Origin: Thermodesulfovibrio sp.
GTDB lineage: Bacteria; Nitrospirota; Thermodesulfovibrionia; Thermodesulfovibrionales; Dissulfurispiraceae
Direction of reading: 5' to 3'
Assembly (NCBI GenBank): GCA_013824325.1
Contig: PNNP01000004.1
Coordinates: forward strand, 1 to 34,633
DNA length: 34,633 nt
Of the stretch, positions 8,373-21,774 are shown piece by piece. The translations under genes and the position numbers were made by a program. Each line of letters starts with the position of its first letter. Position 1 is the stretch's first letter. The notes beneath the pieces are model-generated. The model worked only from the letters and a program-made list of their open reading frames with translations. It had not been told where the DNA came from and made no database searches.

Positions 8373-8927
8373 TTATAACTTATTTTTTGATTTAAGCTCT
8401 CTAATCTTATTGAGGGTATCGAGATAATTTTCATTGGAAGGGCTCAAATCAAGCGCTTTCAATACAAGAGATTCTGCCTCAAGAAGAAGAATTTTTAATT
8501 CTTCAACCGCCAGTTTTGAACCTTTAGCCTTATTATAATAAAGCCATGCAAGATTATTATAGGCATCAGTGATGTCGGGTTTCTCTTCAATTGCTTTTCT
8601 GTAAAACCCCTCTGCCCTTTCTGAATCCCCTTTTTGCACAAAGATATTGCCCAGATAAAGATATGCAAGTGGAAGCTTTTTTGATGCCTTTTTATATTCC
8701 TCAACAGCGTTATCAGTTTCTCCTTTCTTTTCATATGCGACGCCGAGGTTGATATGTTCATCGGGAGTTAAAGGGTCATCAAGAATGACTATCCTCGGCA
8801 GAGAACAGCCAGCGGTCAGGAGACAGAAGACAGCAATCAGCAAGACTATCAAAACTAAGGATGATGTATTTATTTCCGACTGCCGACTGCCGACTGCCGA
8901 CTGCCGACTCACTTCGGCTTTATCCAT
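8373..8927 (-). CDS. TPR-repeat lipoprotein of the PA2778/PA2779-type locus
   Basis: The 184-aa product (from the ATG at 8927) has a hydrophobic signal with lipobox LTAGC, predicting an acylated periplasmic or outer-membrane lipoprotein. At least two or three tetratricopeptide repeats follow, in DEHINLGVAYEKKGETDNA, LAYLYLGNIFVQKGDSERA and DAYNNLAWLYYNKAKG. Its neighbour is a C39-like peptidase, the other half of what PA2778-family proteins carry as one chain. The start is uncertain: ATG at 8954, ATG at 8927 and a GTG at 8912 that overlaps the peptidase stop are all in frame. Everything between the start and the lipobox is encoded by a heptad-periodic tract, giving a strange SRQSAVGSRQS n-region. 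Confidence 0.78.
   Translation of the reverse strand: MDKAEVSRQSAVGSRQSEINTSSLVLIVLLIAVFCLLTAGCSLPRIVILDDPLTPDEHINLGVAYEKKGETDNAVEEYKKASKKLPLAYLYLGNIFVQKGDSERAEGFYRKAIEEKPDITDAYNNLAWLYYNKAKGSKLAVEELKILLLEAESLVLKALDLSPSNENYLDTLNKIRELKSKNKL
8814..8911. repeat. Heptad-periodic tract spanning the peptidase stop and TPR lipoprotein signal
   Basis: Fourteen 7-bp units in constant register occur here. The right part is CGACTGC repeated four times plus CGACTCA (8877-8911), and the left part is a degenerate AGACAG-type arm. The peptidase TGA stop (8909-8911) lies inside the last unit. In the TPR frame the tract encodes the N-region and much of the signal peptide. Confidence 0.85.
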
Positions 8928-9439
8928 AATGTCCAGAAATTCGTTTTTCCCCATGCTTTTAAAAATGTGTCCTTCTTTATAAATACCCGTTCCTTCTTGC
9001 CCGAATTTGCAATAATGCCGTCTTCAGTATAACCTACAACAACCATAAAGTGATTCGTCTGAAATATTGAAAAACCGTAGTCTACAAGGACAATAAGAGG
9101 ATACCCGTCATGTATCTTTGCTTTCAAATCCTCCCAGTCTCCTCGATAGTATAATGAATAAAATCCCTTCTTCTGGGCATAAAGTGCCATATCTATGGTA
9201 AGCGTTCCCCTTGCAGATACACTGTATATGTCCCTTGCTATATCATCGGGAGTGATGTTGACGCGCCAGTAATTCATTACACCAGCAATGGATGCCGGTC
9301 CGCACTGATAATCCTCCTGCGGATGAAACGGCACATTATTTATCATTATTGGCTTTGAATCAAACCGGACAGAAACCGTCGAGCACGAAAATAGAGCAAA
9401 AATAATAATCAGAAATATTATTTTAAACTTATATGTCAT
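8909..9439 (-). CDS. C39-like cysteine peptidase lipoprotein (PA2778 family)
   Basis: The 176-aa product begins with a hydrophobic signal and lipobox (ALFSC), so it is probably membrane-anchored in the periplasm. A peptidase C39-like domain follows: catalytic Cys in YQCGPAS (about residue 46), His in TNHFMVVVGY, and a downstream Asn in IANSGKKERVF. PA2778-family proteins normally continue into TPR repeats in one chain. Here the peptidase stops after NFWTLWIKPK and the TPR part is a separate overlapping gene. The substrate is unknown. There is no good ribosome-binding site, and a strong terminator hairpin ends only about 18 bp before the start, so expression may depend on read-through. Confidence 0.82.
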   Translation of the reverse strand: MTYKFKIIFLIIIFALFSCSTVSVRFDSKPIMINNVPFHPQEDYQCGPASIAGVMNYWRVNITPDDIARDIYSVSARGTLTIDMALYAQKKGFYSLYYRGDWEDLKAKIHDGYPLIVLVDYGFSIFQTNHFMVVVGYTEDGIIANSGKKERVFIKKDTFLKAWGKTNFWTLWIKPK

Positions 9440-9456
9440 TTTATTGTGAACTTAAA

Positions 9457-9486
9457 ACAGGGCAGGGATTGTTATCCCTGCCCTGT
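9457..9486 (-). terminator. Rho-independent terminator after the PA2779-family gene
   Basis: A perfect 13-bp GC-rich inverted repeat (9457-9469 with 9474-9486, 4-nt loop) is followed on the minus strand by TTTT. It lies 14 bp past the PA2779-family stop and just before the peptidase start, so it can separate or attenuate expression between the two. Confidence 0.85.
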
Positions 9487-9500
9487 GAAAACGGAAAGAA

Positions 9501-9893
9501 CTATTTGGTCACTACAACCTTGTGCCCTGTCAACTGCAGCAATAATACAACCAGTATTGCTATCACAAGGAGTGCAATAATAATTCCGAGAGCGTCACCT
9601 CCTACTTTCAGGTCATCAATATGAAGGGATAGTTGATGTATCTGCTGATCGCTCATTTGTGAAAGCCGGCTATTAATTTCGTCCTCGGTAAGGCCGAATC
9701 TTTCGAGCCTCTCCCTTATCATCTTTGTCTCGAGTACCTTCTGTATCTTATCCAAATCAGCAGCCCTGTCAACATTTGCAAGAGCAATGACTTCAGACGG
9801 AGCAAAACCAGCATCAACCTTCGGGGCAATACCGATAATGAACATTGCAAAAACAAGATACCATGAAACCTGCTTCATAAAAGGAATCTTCAT
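9501..9893 (-). CDS. PA2779 family protein
   Basis: The roughly 130-aa product has an N-terminal signal peptide (about residues 1-28, ending near VDAGF), then SEVIALANVDRAADLDKIQKVLE and a helical segment ELERFGL-type (RERLERFGLTEDEINSRLSQMSDQQ). A C-terminal hydrophobic span (LGIIIALLVIAILVVLLLQL) precedes a short tail. This is the layout of PA2779-family proteins, whose genes travel with the PA2778-type peptidase, as here. Function is unknown. The C-terminal anchor suggests an inner-membrane partner or substrate of the peptidase, which is inference. AAGGAGGTGA precedes the start; ATG at 9893 is preferred over the adjoining TTG at 9896. Four 17-bp tandem repeats lie just upstream. Confidence 0.82.
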   Translation of the reverse strand: MKIPFMKQVSWYLVFAMFIIGIAPKVDAGFAPSEVIALANVDRAADLDKIQKVLETKMIRERLERFGLTEDEINSRLSQMSDQQIHQLSLHIDDLKVGGDALGIIIALLVIAILVVLLLQLTGHKVVVTK

Positions 9894-9915
9894 CAATCCT
9901 TCACCTCCTTCTCTT

Positions 9916-16395: not shown

Positions 16396-16797
16396 ATGCC
16401 CTCAAAACCTTTAAATCGCAACATACTCATCATAGATGACAATCAATCTGTCAGGAAAATTCTTTACGACTTCTTTAAATTTTCCGGTTTTAAAGTCCAG
16501 AGTGCTAATAATGGCATATCTGCATTATCCCTCCTGAAAAATGAATATTTCGACATAATTATCACAGATTATTCAATGCCCGGAATAAACGGTGTTGAAC
16601 TTACAAAAATATTGCGGACTCGATATCTTCAAACTTTAATAATTGGTATAAGTGCAGATTGTAATGAAAAGGATTTCTTAGATGCGGGAGCTGATGCCTT
16701 TTTTTACAAACCGTTCAATCTTGAGAAACTTCTTTCAACAATTCAACAAAACAATCAAAAGAAAAACACTTATGAAACTTTTAAAAATATAAAATAG
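16396..16797 (+). CDS. Single-domain (CheY-like) response regulator
   Basis: The 133-aa product is a receiver domain with no output domain. The acidic pair is D14-D15, the phospho-acceptor is D58 (IIITDYSMPG), the switch residue is S86 in place of the usual Thr or Ser, and the conserved Lys is K105 in FFYKPF. It likely relays phosphate or binds a partner protein rather than DNA. No histidine kinase is in the window. AGGAGGT stands a few bases before the ATG. It is the only confident plus-strand gene here and has its own promoter. A functional link with the diguanylate cyclase 0.9 kb away is possible but unsupported. Confidence 0.93.
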   Translation: MPSKPLNRNILIIDDNQSVRKILYDFFKFSGFKVQSANNGISALSLLKNEYFDIIITDYSMPGINGVELTKILRTRYLQTLIIGISADCNEKDFLDAGADAFFYKPFNLEKLLSTIQQNNQKKNTYETFKNIK

Positions 16798-18807: not shown

Positions 18808-19683
18808 TTAAACAGAACTACTGCATTTCTCTCTATCCACGTGAAAGTCGAATCTTCTAGAAGAAAGTGTTTGTTCAAATGTCTTGAGTTTTGTTTTGAG
18901 CAATTTTTTTGCAAGAGATATATCAAGTGAAACATCTTTGGGACGATTAATAATATTACTCGAACTAAAGGCAATCTTTTCTTCGTTCATGCAAAATGTA
19001 CGTGCTATCATTCTTGCAAATTCATATCGGCTATATCTCTCAGGTCCTGCAACATGAATGATTTGTAGTCCTTGAATATGCGGAATTTCTATAAGTGCAT
19101 TACAAAGATCATCAACTATAATAGGACATCTAAATTCATCGATGAAATATGGACTGGTTTTTTCCAAATGGTTTAATTCCCATATTAATTTCTCTGTCCT
19201 ACAATCAAGAGGGGAAAACCCATAAACAAGTGATGTCCTGACTACCATACCACCAGCATTTAATACTAATTTCTCCGCCTTATATTTTGCTTGTCCGTAA
19301 TCGTTAATAGGTGAGGGCATGTCCGTCTCAGTATACATGCCTTTTCTGCCATCAAAAATATTATCAGTTGATAAGAAGACTATTTTAGATTGTATGCTGG
19401 CTTTCTCTACGGCAGCTATAACATTTTTTATTCCCAGCACGGTTGTGCCGAAAATATCTTCTTGAGAAAAAGAGAAATAATATATTATTTCAGGACTTAA
19501 ACTAAGTATGACTCGGTTCACTTCGTTGCCATCTCTAACGTCGAGATGTATAACGGTATCATTGGAACTTAAAGGAATAAAATGGCGTGTACAGTAAGTG
19601 CCACTTATATTATGGTGATTAGATAGTATTCTATACAGATTACTTCCAATGTACCCGCTCACTCCAATTATCAATACTTTCAT
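18808..19683 (-). CDS. RmlD-like NAD(P)-dependent sugar reductase/epimerase
   Basis: The 291-aa product is an extended short-chain dehydrogenase/reductase. The cofactor loop is GVSGYIG (residues 7-13), the STDNIFDG block (105-112) corresponds to the RmlD STDxVFDG motif, and the active-site pair is Y129xxxK133 in NDYGQAKYKAEK. Later blocks (YFIDEFRCPIIVDDLCNAL and HVAGPERYSRYEFA) also match dTDP-4-dehydrorhamnose reductase relatives. It would reduce or epimerise a nucleotide sugar or similar substrate. The rest of a dTDP-rhamnose pathway is not nearby, so the substrate is probably something else. It overlaps the membrane protein gene by four bases (ATGA). The region looks more AT-rich than its neighbours. 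Confidence 0.8.
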   Translation of the reverse strand: MKVLIIGVSGYIGSNLYRILSNHHNISGTYCTRHFIPLSSNDTVIHLDVRDGNEVNRVILSLSPEIIYYFSFSQEDIFGTTVLGIKNVIAAVEKASIQSKIVFLSTDNIFDGRKGMYTETDMPSPINDYGQAKYKAEKLVLNAGGMVVRTSLVYGFSPLDCRTEKLIWELNHLEKTSPYFIDEFRCPIIVDDLCNALIEIPHIQGLQIIHVAGPERYSRYEFARMIARTFCMNEEKIAFSSSNIINRPKDVSLDISLAKKLLKTKLKTFEQTLSSRRFDFHVDREKCSSSV

Positions 19684-20537
19684 GGGTTTTGGATTTGTTG
19701 AGAGATAAAATCTTTCAATGTTTCGGGGCTTACTACATTGCCATTATCATCAAATTGCACTTTTGAGGTTTTGTCATTATTGTTCCATAGCATATTAAAA
19801 TCTGTTAAATAGCGATTGAAAAATCCATTCTTAGTTTTTTTTAAATGGTAAACTGGACTTGAGCTTCCTAAACCACCACAACAATAATGTGTTGCAATCA
19901 TCTCGTTATCAGCCATATTAAATTCAACATATAAAATATCATTTGAAATTTTTACCTCAAGTTTTTGTTTATGTTCAGCAGACAGAGCAGAATAAATCTT
20001 GCCCAGGGCTCCTATAGACCGAGCAATATCCTTACGAAGTTCTCTCGTCTTTTCAAGAGGTTTTTGAGCATCCTCAACTTCCTTTAATTGTTGCTGATCA
20101 GTTGAAGGTGGTATTGGATCTAAAAGCAGTACTTGCATGGAAATCAAGGCATTATTTTTCTGAAATATTTCTACAAAATTATATCTCGGACCATCCATGT
20201 CTTCTGGGGCAAAAAGGCCCATGAGAGAAGTCCCCATATACCTTAACTTCTTTGATTTATAAGCCTTCTTATTATGTAACTCATCGTATAATGATTGCAT
20301 CTCATGCCGCCTTAATTTTACTTTTTTAATACCTAATTTCAATGAACTGTAGTTAATCATAAATGGAATGCCCGCCAAAATTACCAATACCAAGCCGCAA
20401 TAAAAAAGAATACCCTGTGGGGGAAAATTAAAAGTAACTGTAGAAATTATAATTAGTAAAAATCCAGCATAAATTGGAGGGTATTCCTTTATAATATCCC
20501 ATATCTCTTTGAGAGTTTTAATGTCCATATGCATCAC
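19680..20537 (-). CDS. Membrane-anchored protein with PLD-like/DUF5919-type C-terminal domain
   Basis: The 285-aa product is not a member of a family I can name with certainty. Two transmembrane helices lie at about 23-60, followed by a charged linker. The rest is cytoplasmic if the short N-terminus is inside. From about residue 100 it resembles the domain called DUF5919 or PLD-like in signalling proteins: YMGTSLMGLF, ISMQVLLLDP, a helical ELRKDIARSIGALGKIY segment, KLEVKISNDILYVEF, then SSPVYHLKKT and FFNRYLTDFNMLW. The catalytic HxK motif of true phospholipase D is not seen, so this may be a sensor or binding domain. It is translationally coupled to the genes on both sides (4-bp overlaps). 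Confidence 0.6.
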   Translation of the reverse strand: MMHMDIKTLKEIWDIIKEYPPIYAGFLLIIISTVTFNFPPQGILFYCGLVLVILAGIPFMINYSSLKLGIKKVKLRRHEMQSLYDELHNKKAYKSKKLRYMGTSLMGLFAPEDMDGPRYNFVEIFQKNNALISMQVLLLDPIPPSTDQQQLKEVEDAQKPLEKTRELRKDIARSIGALGKIYSALSAEHKQKLEVKISNDILYVEFNMADNEMIATHYCCGGLGSSSPVYHLKKTKNGFFNRYLTDFNMLWNNNDKTSKVQFDDNGNVVSPETLKDFISQQIQNP

Positions 20538-21736
20538 AAAAAATTAGAGTGACTGTTATTTTTAATTTCTTCTGCTTGCAAAACTACTTCTTTAAGAAGT
20601 TTTCCATCCTCTGAATCTAGGTATGTAAGAAATTTATTTATCTCATGACCTTTGCAACACACTTGACAGGTTGCTAAATTTAAACCACCATCTTCGCAAA
20701 ATTTTACTACTCTCTTTCGCTGTTCTCCTTTCCAAATTGCTTCGAAGGTTTCATTATATATGTTTCCAAAAACAAACCGCTTATCGTATAAATGAAACAT
20801 ACATACAGAAAGGTCACCATTAGCATTTAATACACAAAAAAAGCGATGGTAACGACAACTGCCATAATTACGACCGTAATTTGGTTCTAACAAATCCTTA
20901 AATTTATCCTTAGAGACAATAACTTTACAAGATTTTTCTTTTTGACTAAGTAGTTGCAACTCCGGAAGAACCGTCTTAATAAAATTTGGAGTTAATTGTT
21001 CCCCATAGATAGCATCAACATAAGGTCTTCCAAGAATAGGACGGAATTGAACATAGTTTACCCCTAATTCTTCAGATTTCAGAACAATATTTTTTATGTC
21101 AAAAAAATTCCATTCACCCATATTGACATTAATACCAACAATTGGTGTAACTCGTGAATTTCTGGTAGATACCAGTTTGATGATTCTATCAATAACGACA
21201 TCAATCTCCGTGCCTTTATTTCTCTTGTACTCCTCAGGATTTATTGCATCTAAAGATACCCGTATCCATCTCATATGATTAGAAATCACTGGTACCAGAT
21301 TCTCATCAAAAGCCCCATTAGTTATAAGTGCTTGTTCAAGGCCAAATTTAGCGCATTCCTCTACTGCTTCGGTAAATTCTGGATGACATGTAGGTTCTCC
21401 ACCTCCAGACCAAGTGATTGTTTTACCACCAAGACTTTGGAAATTAGCAAGAAACATAGAAAGCCTTTTAATGTTTAGGTATTCAGGCTTTCTCCCGTTT
21501 GCCTTAACATTTTCATTAATACACCACGGGCATCTTTGATTACAGACATTTGTCAGATTAATTTCTATATGAATTGGGAATGTATCACCATTGGTGAGAT
21601 ATTGATATAAGTGATCAGAGTGAAAATGTAATAATTTACTTACACTTTTGAACGGTTGAAGTTCCAAGTGTAACTTCTGAATTTTAGGGCTGATAGAAAT
21701 GCCCTTAGTATATTTCTTTTTTGCTATCGTAATCAT
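20534..21736 (-). CDS. Radical SAM protein with SPASM/twitch-like C-terminus
   Basis: The 400-aa product binds a [4Fe-4S] cluster through C65, C69 and C72 (CNQRCPWC) and cleaves S-adenosylmethionine. The SGGGEP motif follows in TITWSGGGEPTCHPEF. The C-terminal region has an auxiliary-cluster half-motif (Cys, 12 residues, Gly, four residues, Cys, in GSCRYH...NANGDLSVC). A late CQVCC lacks the full SPASM continuation, so one auxiliary cluster is more likely than two. About 55 residues precede the usual IHIEINLTNVC start of the fold. No precursor peptide ORF is visible nearby. It is the first gene of a three-gene overlapping unit behind a consensus promoter, with the ATG only about three bases after the predicted transcription start. 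The substrate is unknown. Confidence 0.85.
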   Translation of the reverse strand: MITIAKKKYTKGISISPKIQKLHLELQPFKSVSKLLHFHSDHLYQYLTNGDTFPIHIEINLTNVCNQRCPWCINENVKANGRKPEYLNIKRLSMFLANFQSLGGKTITWSGGGEPTCHPEFTEAVEECAKFGLEQALITNGAFDENLVPVISNHMRWIRVSLDAINPEEYKRNKGTEIDVVIDRIIKLVSTRNSRVTPIVGINVNMGEWNFFDIKNIVLKSEELGVNYVQFRPILGRPYVDAIYGEQLTPNFIKTVLPELQLLSQKEKSCKVIVSKDKFKDLLEPNYGRNYGSCRYHRFFCVLNANGDLSVCMFHLYDKRFVFGNIYNETFEAIWKGEQRKRVVKFCEDGGLNLATCQVCCKGHEINKFLTYLDSEDGKLLKEVVLQAEEIKNNSHSNFL

Positions 21737-21745
21737 CTTGATATC

Positions 21746-21774
21746 ATTATATCCATGTAGTTTCTTTCTGTCAA
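21746..21774 (-). promoter_or_regulatory. Perfect sigma70 promoter of the radical SAM island
   Basis: The minus strand has TTGACA (21769-21774), 17 bp, then TATAAT (21746-21751), a full consensus match. The radical SAM ATG is at 21736, nine bases beyond the -10 box. A start six or seven bases downstream leaves a leader of only a few nucleotides and no room for a ribosome-binding site. The remaining gap, 21775-21920, holds no gene; it has a small hairpin (21796-21811) of unclear orientation. Confidence 0.75.

Follow-up and report, generated by a model that had tools for sequence, protein, structure and literature searches.

An apparently imported operon among housekeeping-type genes

The 34,633-nucleotide stretch of Thermodesulfovibrio sp. 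DNA analysed here, which we refer to in its full length as the window, contains an intact minus-strand trio of genes at 18808-21736. In order of transcription these encode a radical SAM/SPASM enzyme (gene 1), a two-span membrane protein (gene 2) and an RmlD-like reductase (gene 3), and their coordinates are collected with those of other features in Table 1. Successive genes overlap by 4 nt (20534-20537 for genes 1 and 2, 19680-19683 for genes 2 and 3), just as an earlier description made by a model from the letters alone (hereafter the sequence-only reading) had stated; an ATG in TTGTGATG provides an alternative start for gene 2, with which the overlap with gene 1 would be 1 nt. The neighbours, identified by reading their sequences, are a site-2-protease-like membrane peptidase and RimO upstream and a PAS-GGDEF protein and an RNA methyltransferase downstream, so that the trio is a stand-alone unit amid housekeeping-type genes.

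The same reading had set the trio apart from its flanks by a higher AT content and a strong promoter of its own, and both points hold. The trio has a GC content of 0.34-0.35 and a GC3 of 0.25-0.29, compared with 0.42 (sd 0.02) and 0.42 (sd 0.05), respectively, in a comparison set of 28 neighbouring minus-strand genes; on the basis of this low GC and GC3 the trio is apparently imported and of foreign origin. The predicted promoter is a perfect match to the sigma-70-type consensus, and it ends 9 nt before the gene 1 ATG, which would leave the transcript with little or no leader. We found no Rfam elements in the trio region and no convincing flanking repeats of transposon type around it. Elsewhere in the window, a plus-strand response-regulator gene (16396-16797; GC 0.316, GC3 0.29) is also unlike its neighbours in composition.

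Table 1. Positions of the genes, motifs and predicted elements of the trio (window coordinates) and of comparison loci carrying a DUF5919 regulator beside a NUDIX gene (locus coordinates).
Feature	Position	Strand	Basis or remark
Gene 1, radical SAM/SPASM enzyme, 400 aa	20534..21736	-	PF04055 59 bits, PF13186 37 bits
Gene 2, two-span membrane protein, 285 aa	19680..20537	-	41% identical ortholog in L137
Gene 3, RmlD-like extended SDR, 291 aa	18808..19683	-	PF04321 106 bits
CxxxCxxC motif of gene 1 (C65, C69, C72)	21521..21544	-	invariant in ten-member family alignment and L137 ortholog
SPASM-like auxiliary cluster region of gene 1 (C294, C312, C357, C361)	20654..20857	-	invariant in 10 relatives
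Two predicted membrane spans of gene 2 (aa ~22-38 and 42-60)	20358..20474	-	Kyte-Doolittle means 1.92, 2.36
DUF5919-like (degenerate PLD-like) domain of gene 2 (aa ~97-253)	19779..20249	-	hhalign vs DUF5919 regulators and alignments
Predicted sigma-70-type promoter, TTGACA-17-TATAAT, perfect	21746..21774	-	single perfect match in window, 0.04 expected
XRE-DUF5919 + NUDIX loci	L055:7494-8686, L056:5494-6686, L059:2962-4202, L064:5467-6684, L065:5536-6767, L066:5278-6767

Gene 1 is a distinct branch of a radical SAM family

The gene 1 protein matches Radical_SAM and SPASM, both over the Pfam gathering cut-off, and has the CxxxCxxC motif. The sequence-only reading had called it a radical SAM enzyme with one auxiliary cluster, and the four conserved C-terminal cysteines do point to one probable auxiliary Fe-S cluster; C360 is likewise retained in the ortholog at a second locus, L137, which is described below. 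A C-terminal NF motif, usually HxNF, is common to the ten aligned family members. Among NCBIfam maturase models there were many weak matches, none of them at cut-off. The solved structures best matched by the family profile are DesII (a TDP-sugar deaminase), cytosylglucuronate decarboxylase (BlsE) and MoaA. For the first two, the likeness is at profile level, covers mainly the radical SAM core and leaves substrate residues out of the comparison, and the genomic context of gene 1 differs from theirs. BlsE and DesII are described in PMC3715490 and PMC11434129. Prokaryotic viperin (pVip) has a similar radical SAM core, whereas gene 1 has a SPASM extension and no nucleotide kinase partner, and its score against the Viperin model NF038283 (51.9 bits) lies below the cut-off of 180.

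Relatives of gene 1 at 25-30% identity are common in glycan clusters, where their neighbours include an HldE-like kinase/cytidylyltransferase, a SIS isomerase, a split transketolase, a methyltransferase and a second radical SAM gene; other relatives adjoin pseudaminic-acid genes or glycosyltransferases. The radical SAM/SPASM enzymes of surface-glycan clusters (heptose-type, HxNF) resemble gene 1 in full-length alignment, in CxxxCxxC, in the four auxiliary cysteines and in a C-terminal H-x-N-F, of which the L137 ortholog lacks the H-x-N part. They differ in that gene 1, at this low identity, lies outside their clade and has a two-span partner rather than a glycan cluster around it. In a tree of 64 radical SAM proteins, gene 1 and its L137 ortholog form a clade of their own (support 100/99), apart from the large glycan-cluster clade (support 100/97), and their next neighbour is a long-branch nanoarchaeal protein encoded in a glycan cluster. 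Judged by these alignments and this tree, gene 1 is a distinct branch of a radical SAM family otherwise found in glycan clusters.

Two further observations concern the wider family. A glycan-type cluster that recurs at L041:6897-13586, L051:6924-14281, L053, L036 and similar loci combines an HldE-like kinase/cytidylyltransferase, SIS isomerase, split transketolase and methyltransferase with a radical SAM protein ending in HVNFI and a second radical SAM protein; our literature search found no description of it. At L143:7989-9047, a radical SAM gene of the same wider family adjoins glycosyltransferases on a phage-like contig.

Gene 2 combines two membrane spans with a remotely DUF5919-like domain

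The gene 2 protein has no match in Pfam or NCBIfam, and none to PF19319 (DUF5919) at E<1; a PF19319 search in its relatives was also without a match, with the controls equally silent. The DUF5919-like domain that the sequence-only reading had proposed for this protein emerges instead from profile-profile comparison. Aligned with DUF5919 regulators by hhalign, a two-sequence gene 2 profile gave a probability of 92.6 and an E-value of 4.6e-7 over the C-terminal 62 columns (aa 191-252), and another profile-profile comparison gave P 1.5e-5. The sole plasmid matches of gene 2 (E ~1) are Streptomyces XRE regulators, which themselves carry DUF5919 just below the Pfam cut-off together with a trace of PLDc_2. 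With the DUF5919 part of XRE regulators, gene 2 shares the co-linear motifs LLLDP, [AF]D[DN]EM, SPVxHL and F..Y..F..W at ~20% identity, whereas membrane spans take the place of the HTH. The most conserved stretches of the domain are YMGTSL, ILYxEFNMAD, MIATHYCC and SPVY. We therefore describe the domain, from its sequence, as remotely DUF5919-like and predicted to be cytosolic.

The PLD catalytic motif HxKxxxxD is absent from the gene 2 domain, which makes a sensor more likely than a lipase and phospholipase chemistry unlikely. Structure prediction stayed at low confidence: AlphaFold gave a pLDDT of 41 from the single sequence and, with four DUF5919 homologs, a low-confidence model (pLDDT 46.7, pTM 0.48) whose top PDB matches in Foldseek include F13, TrmBL2 and PLD, all at E>0.05. 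Several of these top matches are PLD-superfamily folds, none significant, and there is no such trend in BFVD (viral). The TrmBL2 family uses a PLD-like sugar-sensing domain.

Gene 3 is more conventional. RmlD_sub_bind is over the Pfam cut-off and the SDR motifs GVSGYIG (GxxGxxG), STDNIFDG and YGQAK (YxxxK) are intact, so that domain and motifs are shared with RmlD; the module is, in contrast to RmlD loci, without rmlABC neighbours. As an rmlD equivalog (dTDP-4-dehydrorhamnose reductase) gene 3 was rejected, its NCBIfam score of 103.6 bits falling below the cut-off of 224.

DUF5919-like domains recur beside nucleotide-handling genes

A combined gene 2/DUF5919 profile retrieved two-span or other membrane proteins with the same domain in the window's phylum and in another. 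Nine loci (L080-L083, L133, L135, L136, L139 and L141) encode two-span DUF5919-like proteins with N-terminal spans and a domain of the gene 2 type, but at 15-23% identity where aligned and with no adjoining radical SAM partner. Among them, L080:6387-7722 (genome G044) places a 228-aa membrane DUF5919-like protein directly beside a 214-aa thymidylate-synthase-like protein. At L081:6791-7570 (G079, contig C29), the DUF5919 match of a 259-aa membrane protein is near threshold. The gene of this protein lies within a Cas10c type III CRISPR locus, between cmr3 and a reverse transcriptase-cas1-cas2 block; it is possibly an undescribed ancillary CRISPR-locus protein.

The domain also occurs in a phage regulator and in a fusion that places it between a metallophosphatase and a 2H phosphoesterase (DUF1045/2_5_RNA_ligase2; L079:11-2230, G305). 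On Streptomyces plasmids and actinobacterial-type viral contigs, XRE-DUF5919 regulators are directly followed by a NUDIX gene (Table 1), an adjacency that suggests a ligand hydrolysed by the NUDIX protein. Because such nucleotide-handling partners recur, we propose that the ligand of these domains may be derived from a nucleotide. We also note a 600-aa membrane protein with two DUF5919-like copies at L138:3117-4919 (G344), and a cluster of PA2779-like, C39-like peptidase and TPR lipoprotein genes, read by eye, at window 8373-9896; a similar-looking PA2779/C39/TPR cluster at L133:4760-7552 has a two-span DUF5919-like gene inserted inside it.

The gene 1/gene 2 pair is conserved in a second phylum

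Orthologs of genes 1 and 2 lie adjacent and in the same order at L137 (genome G345, contig C48), with an overlap of 20 nt. The gene 1 ortholog, 400 aa long and located upstream, is 47% identical over 365 aa, and the gene 2 ortholog, whose last ~40 residues are missing, is 41% identical over 250 aa. The pair has 30.3% GC on a contig of 56.9% GC, and nearby, between rbfA and truB, that contig carries an inserted type II restriction enzyme and methylase. For G345, the sampled phylum was that of a Syntrophaceae genome; as the genomes sampled from it are absent from the sample of the window's phylum, we take the two phyla to be different.

Among more than 1,000 sampled genomes of several phyla (the window's phylum, the phyla of G324, G330 (Rhodospirillaceae) and G338 (Pseudobacteroides), and relatives of the two genomes that carry the pair; samples rather than a census), gene 2 orthologs were found in the window genome and G345 only. 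An exact-peptide search of genome and viral contig collections gave no close relatives, and in a gene 1 profile scan of genome contigs the matches listed fall in glycan-type or unrelated loci with no gene 2 neighbour. Across 57 radical SAM neighbourhoods and 16 DUF5919-like loci, L137 alone holds the pair. With one other instance in a sample of this size, the pair is rare and evidently mobile.

By its recurrence in a second phylum, the gene 1/gene 2 pair is a conserved unit and a real accessory pair. The joint function that the sequence-only reading had considered likely for all three genes is thus supported for genes 1 and 2, by their order, adjacency and overlap in another genome, and not for gene 3 as a fixed member, no close copy of which accompanies the pair there. 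The L137 contig ends 78 nt past the gene 2 ortholog, so that membership of gene 3 cannot be judged at that locus, and elsewhere in G345 we found a weak RmlD match at most. Constant membership of gene 3 is therefore not confirmed; its 4-nt overlap with gene 2 argues for co-translation in the window genome.

Weighing possible functions

The probable task of the pair is to make a small molecule derived from a nucleotide or sugar and to sense it or respond to it. Our tentative first choice, short of even confidence, is a mobile conflict-type or signalling module whose enzymes would make a modified nucleotide or nucleotide-sugar that is sensed by the membrane protein. This choice draws on the conserved overlap of the pair across two phyla, the low GC of the L137 pair and its nearby restriction-modification genes, the sporadic occurrence of gene 2 orthologs in sampled genomes, the nucleotide-handling neighbours of DUF5919-like domains together with the missing HxKxxxxD of gene 2, and the presence of DesII and cytosylglucuronate decarboxylase among the profile-nearest solved relatives of gene 1. 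Several findings count against the conflict reading. PADLOC returned weak generic matches in which the components of no known anti-phage system are assembled (genes 2 and 3 fit none of its families, and gene 1 matches the pVip models weakly, over the core); reading the rest of the window's ORFs by eye, we recognised no defence genes; the module shows no component for sensing a trigger; the pair is known from a single other locus, where the membrane gene is short of its last ~40 residues; the nucleotide link of DUF5919 comes from gene neighbourhoods; and the closest wider relatives of gene 1 sit in glycan clusters.

Those relatives favour an envelope modification, somewhat unlikely in our estimate, which ranks close behind; the sequence-only reading had named a membrane-associated sugar or lipid modification as one possibility. 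Here the radical SAM enzyme and the reductase would together produce an uncommon sugar, for instance an epimerised or deoxygenated one, carried on a nucleotide or lipid, with the two-span protein anchoring or guiding the sugar step at the membrane. The wider family of gene 1 occurs in glycan clusters and near pseudaminic-acid genes or glycosyltransferases, reductases weakly similar to gene 3 (RmlD-like) are found in three glycan-type radical SAM loci, and sugars are the substrates of DesII and BlsE-type enzymes, its solved relatives. The module itself, however, has no glycosyltransferase, flippase or nucleotidyltransferase and stands alone among housekeeping genes, its radical SAM enzyme falls outside the supported glycan-cluster clade, and the DUF5919-like domain, which lacks the PLD catalytic motif, is not known as a transferase. 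A two-gene signalling or stress regulator for a non-conflict metabolic pathway, with the membrane protein acting as metabolite sensor and controlling the radical SAM enzyme (or the reverse), we consider improbable: DUF5919 is the presumed sensor part of XRE regulators, and TrmBL2 is among the weak fold matches of the gene 2 model, but rarity and foreign composition are easier to square with an accessory system than with core metabolism, and there is no DNA-binding part.

Many SPASM enzymes act on peptides, and gene 1 weakly matches mycofactocin and WgkB maturase models, which would fit RiPP maturation with the membrane protein exporting or anchoring a modified precursor peptide. We think this very improbable, since the short ORFs in both flanks are unremarkable and include no convincing adjacent precursor gene, no exporter is present, and by profile the closest structures belong to sugar enzymes and MoaA, not to peptide maturases. 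Least probable of all is that the reductase, and possibly all three genes, were imported together as chance neighbours with no joint function: the reductase was not seen beside the L137 pair (where the contig edge lies), nor as a close copy in G345, whereas the gene 1/gene 2 overlap is kept across phyla at 41-47% identity and the 4-nt overlap of gene 3 favours its co-translation.

Returning to the mobile conflict or signalling module, we envisage a horizontally mobile accessory operon built around a radical SAM enzyme and a two-span membrane protein whose translation would be coupled. The product of the radical SAM enzyme, joined in the window genome by the RmlD-like reductase, would be a modified nucleotide or nucleotide-sugar; this compound or its target would be bound by the DUF5919-like domain, which lacks the PLD catalytic motif; and through the membrane spans the envelope would respond to binding, with membrane disturbance in an anti-phage-type conflict as the most plausible form of response. 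The fully specified form of this proposal, a new kind of mobile conflict system with a modified nucleotide-sugar as its signal, a SPASM radical SAM enzyme as the source of that signal and a two-span DUF5919-like sensor that opens or disturbs the membrane, we regard as unlikely.

Implications for DUF5919 and radical SAM enzymes

Searches of the literature on DUF5919, heptose-type radical SAM clusters and PLD-type membrane effectors turned up nothing on this module. The module links DUF5919, a common but unexplained domain, to small-molecule enzymes, and gene 1 joins a small set of radical SAM enzymes apparently paired with a conflict-style membrane protein. If the fully specified conflict-system proposal is true, other systems, among them a type III CRISPR locus and XRE-NUDIX pairs, would use this sensor domain as well; and if a ligand were found, the role of DUF5919 in many regulators, on plasmids and in a CRISPR-linked membrane protein would become testable.
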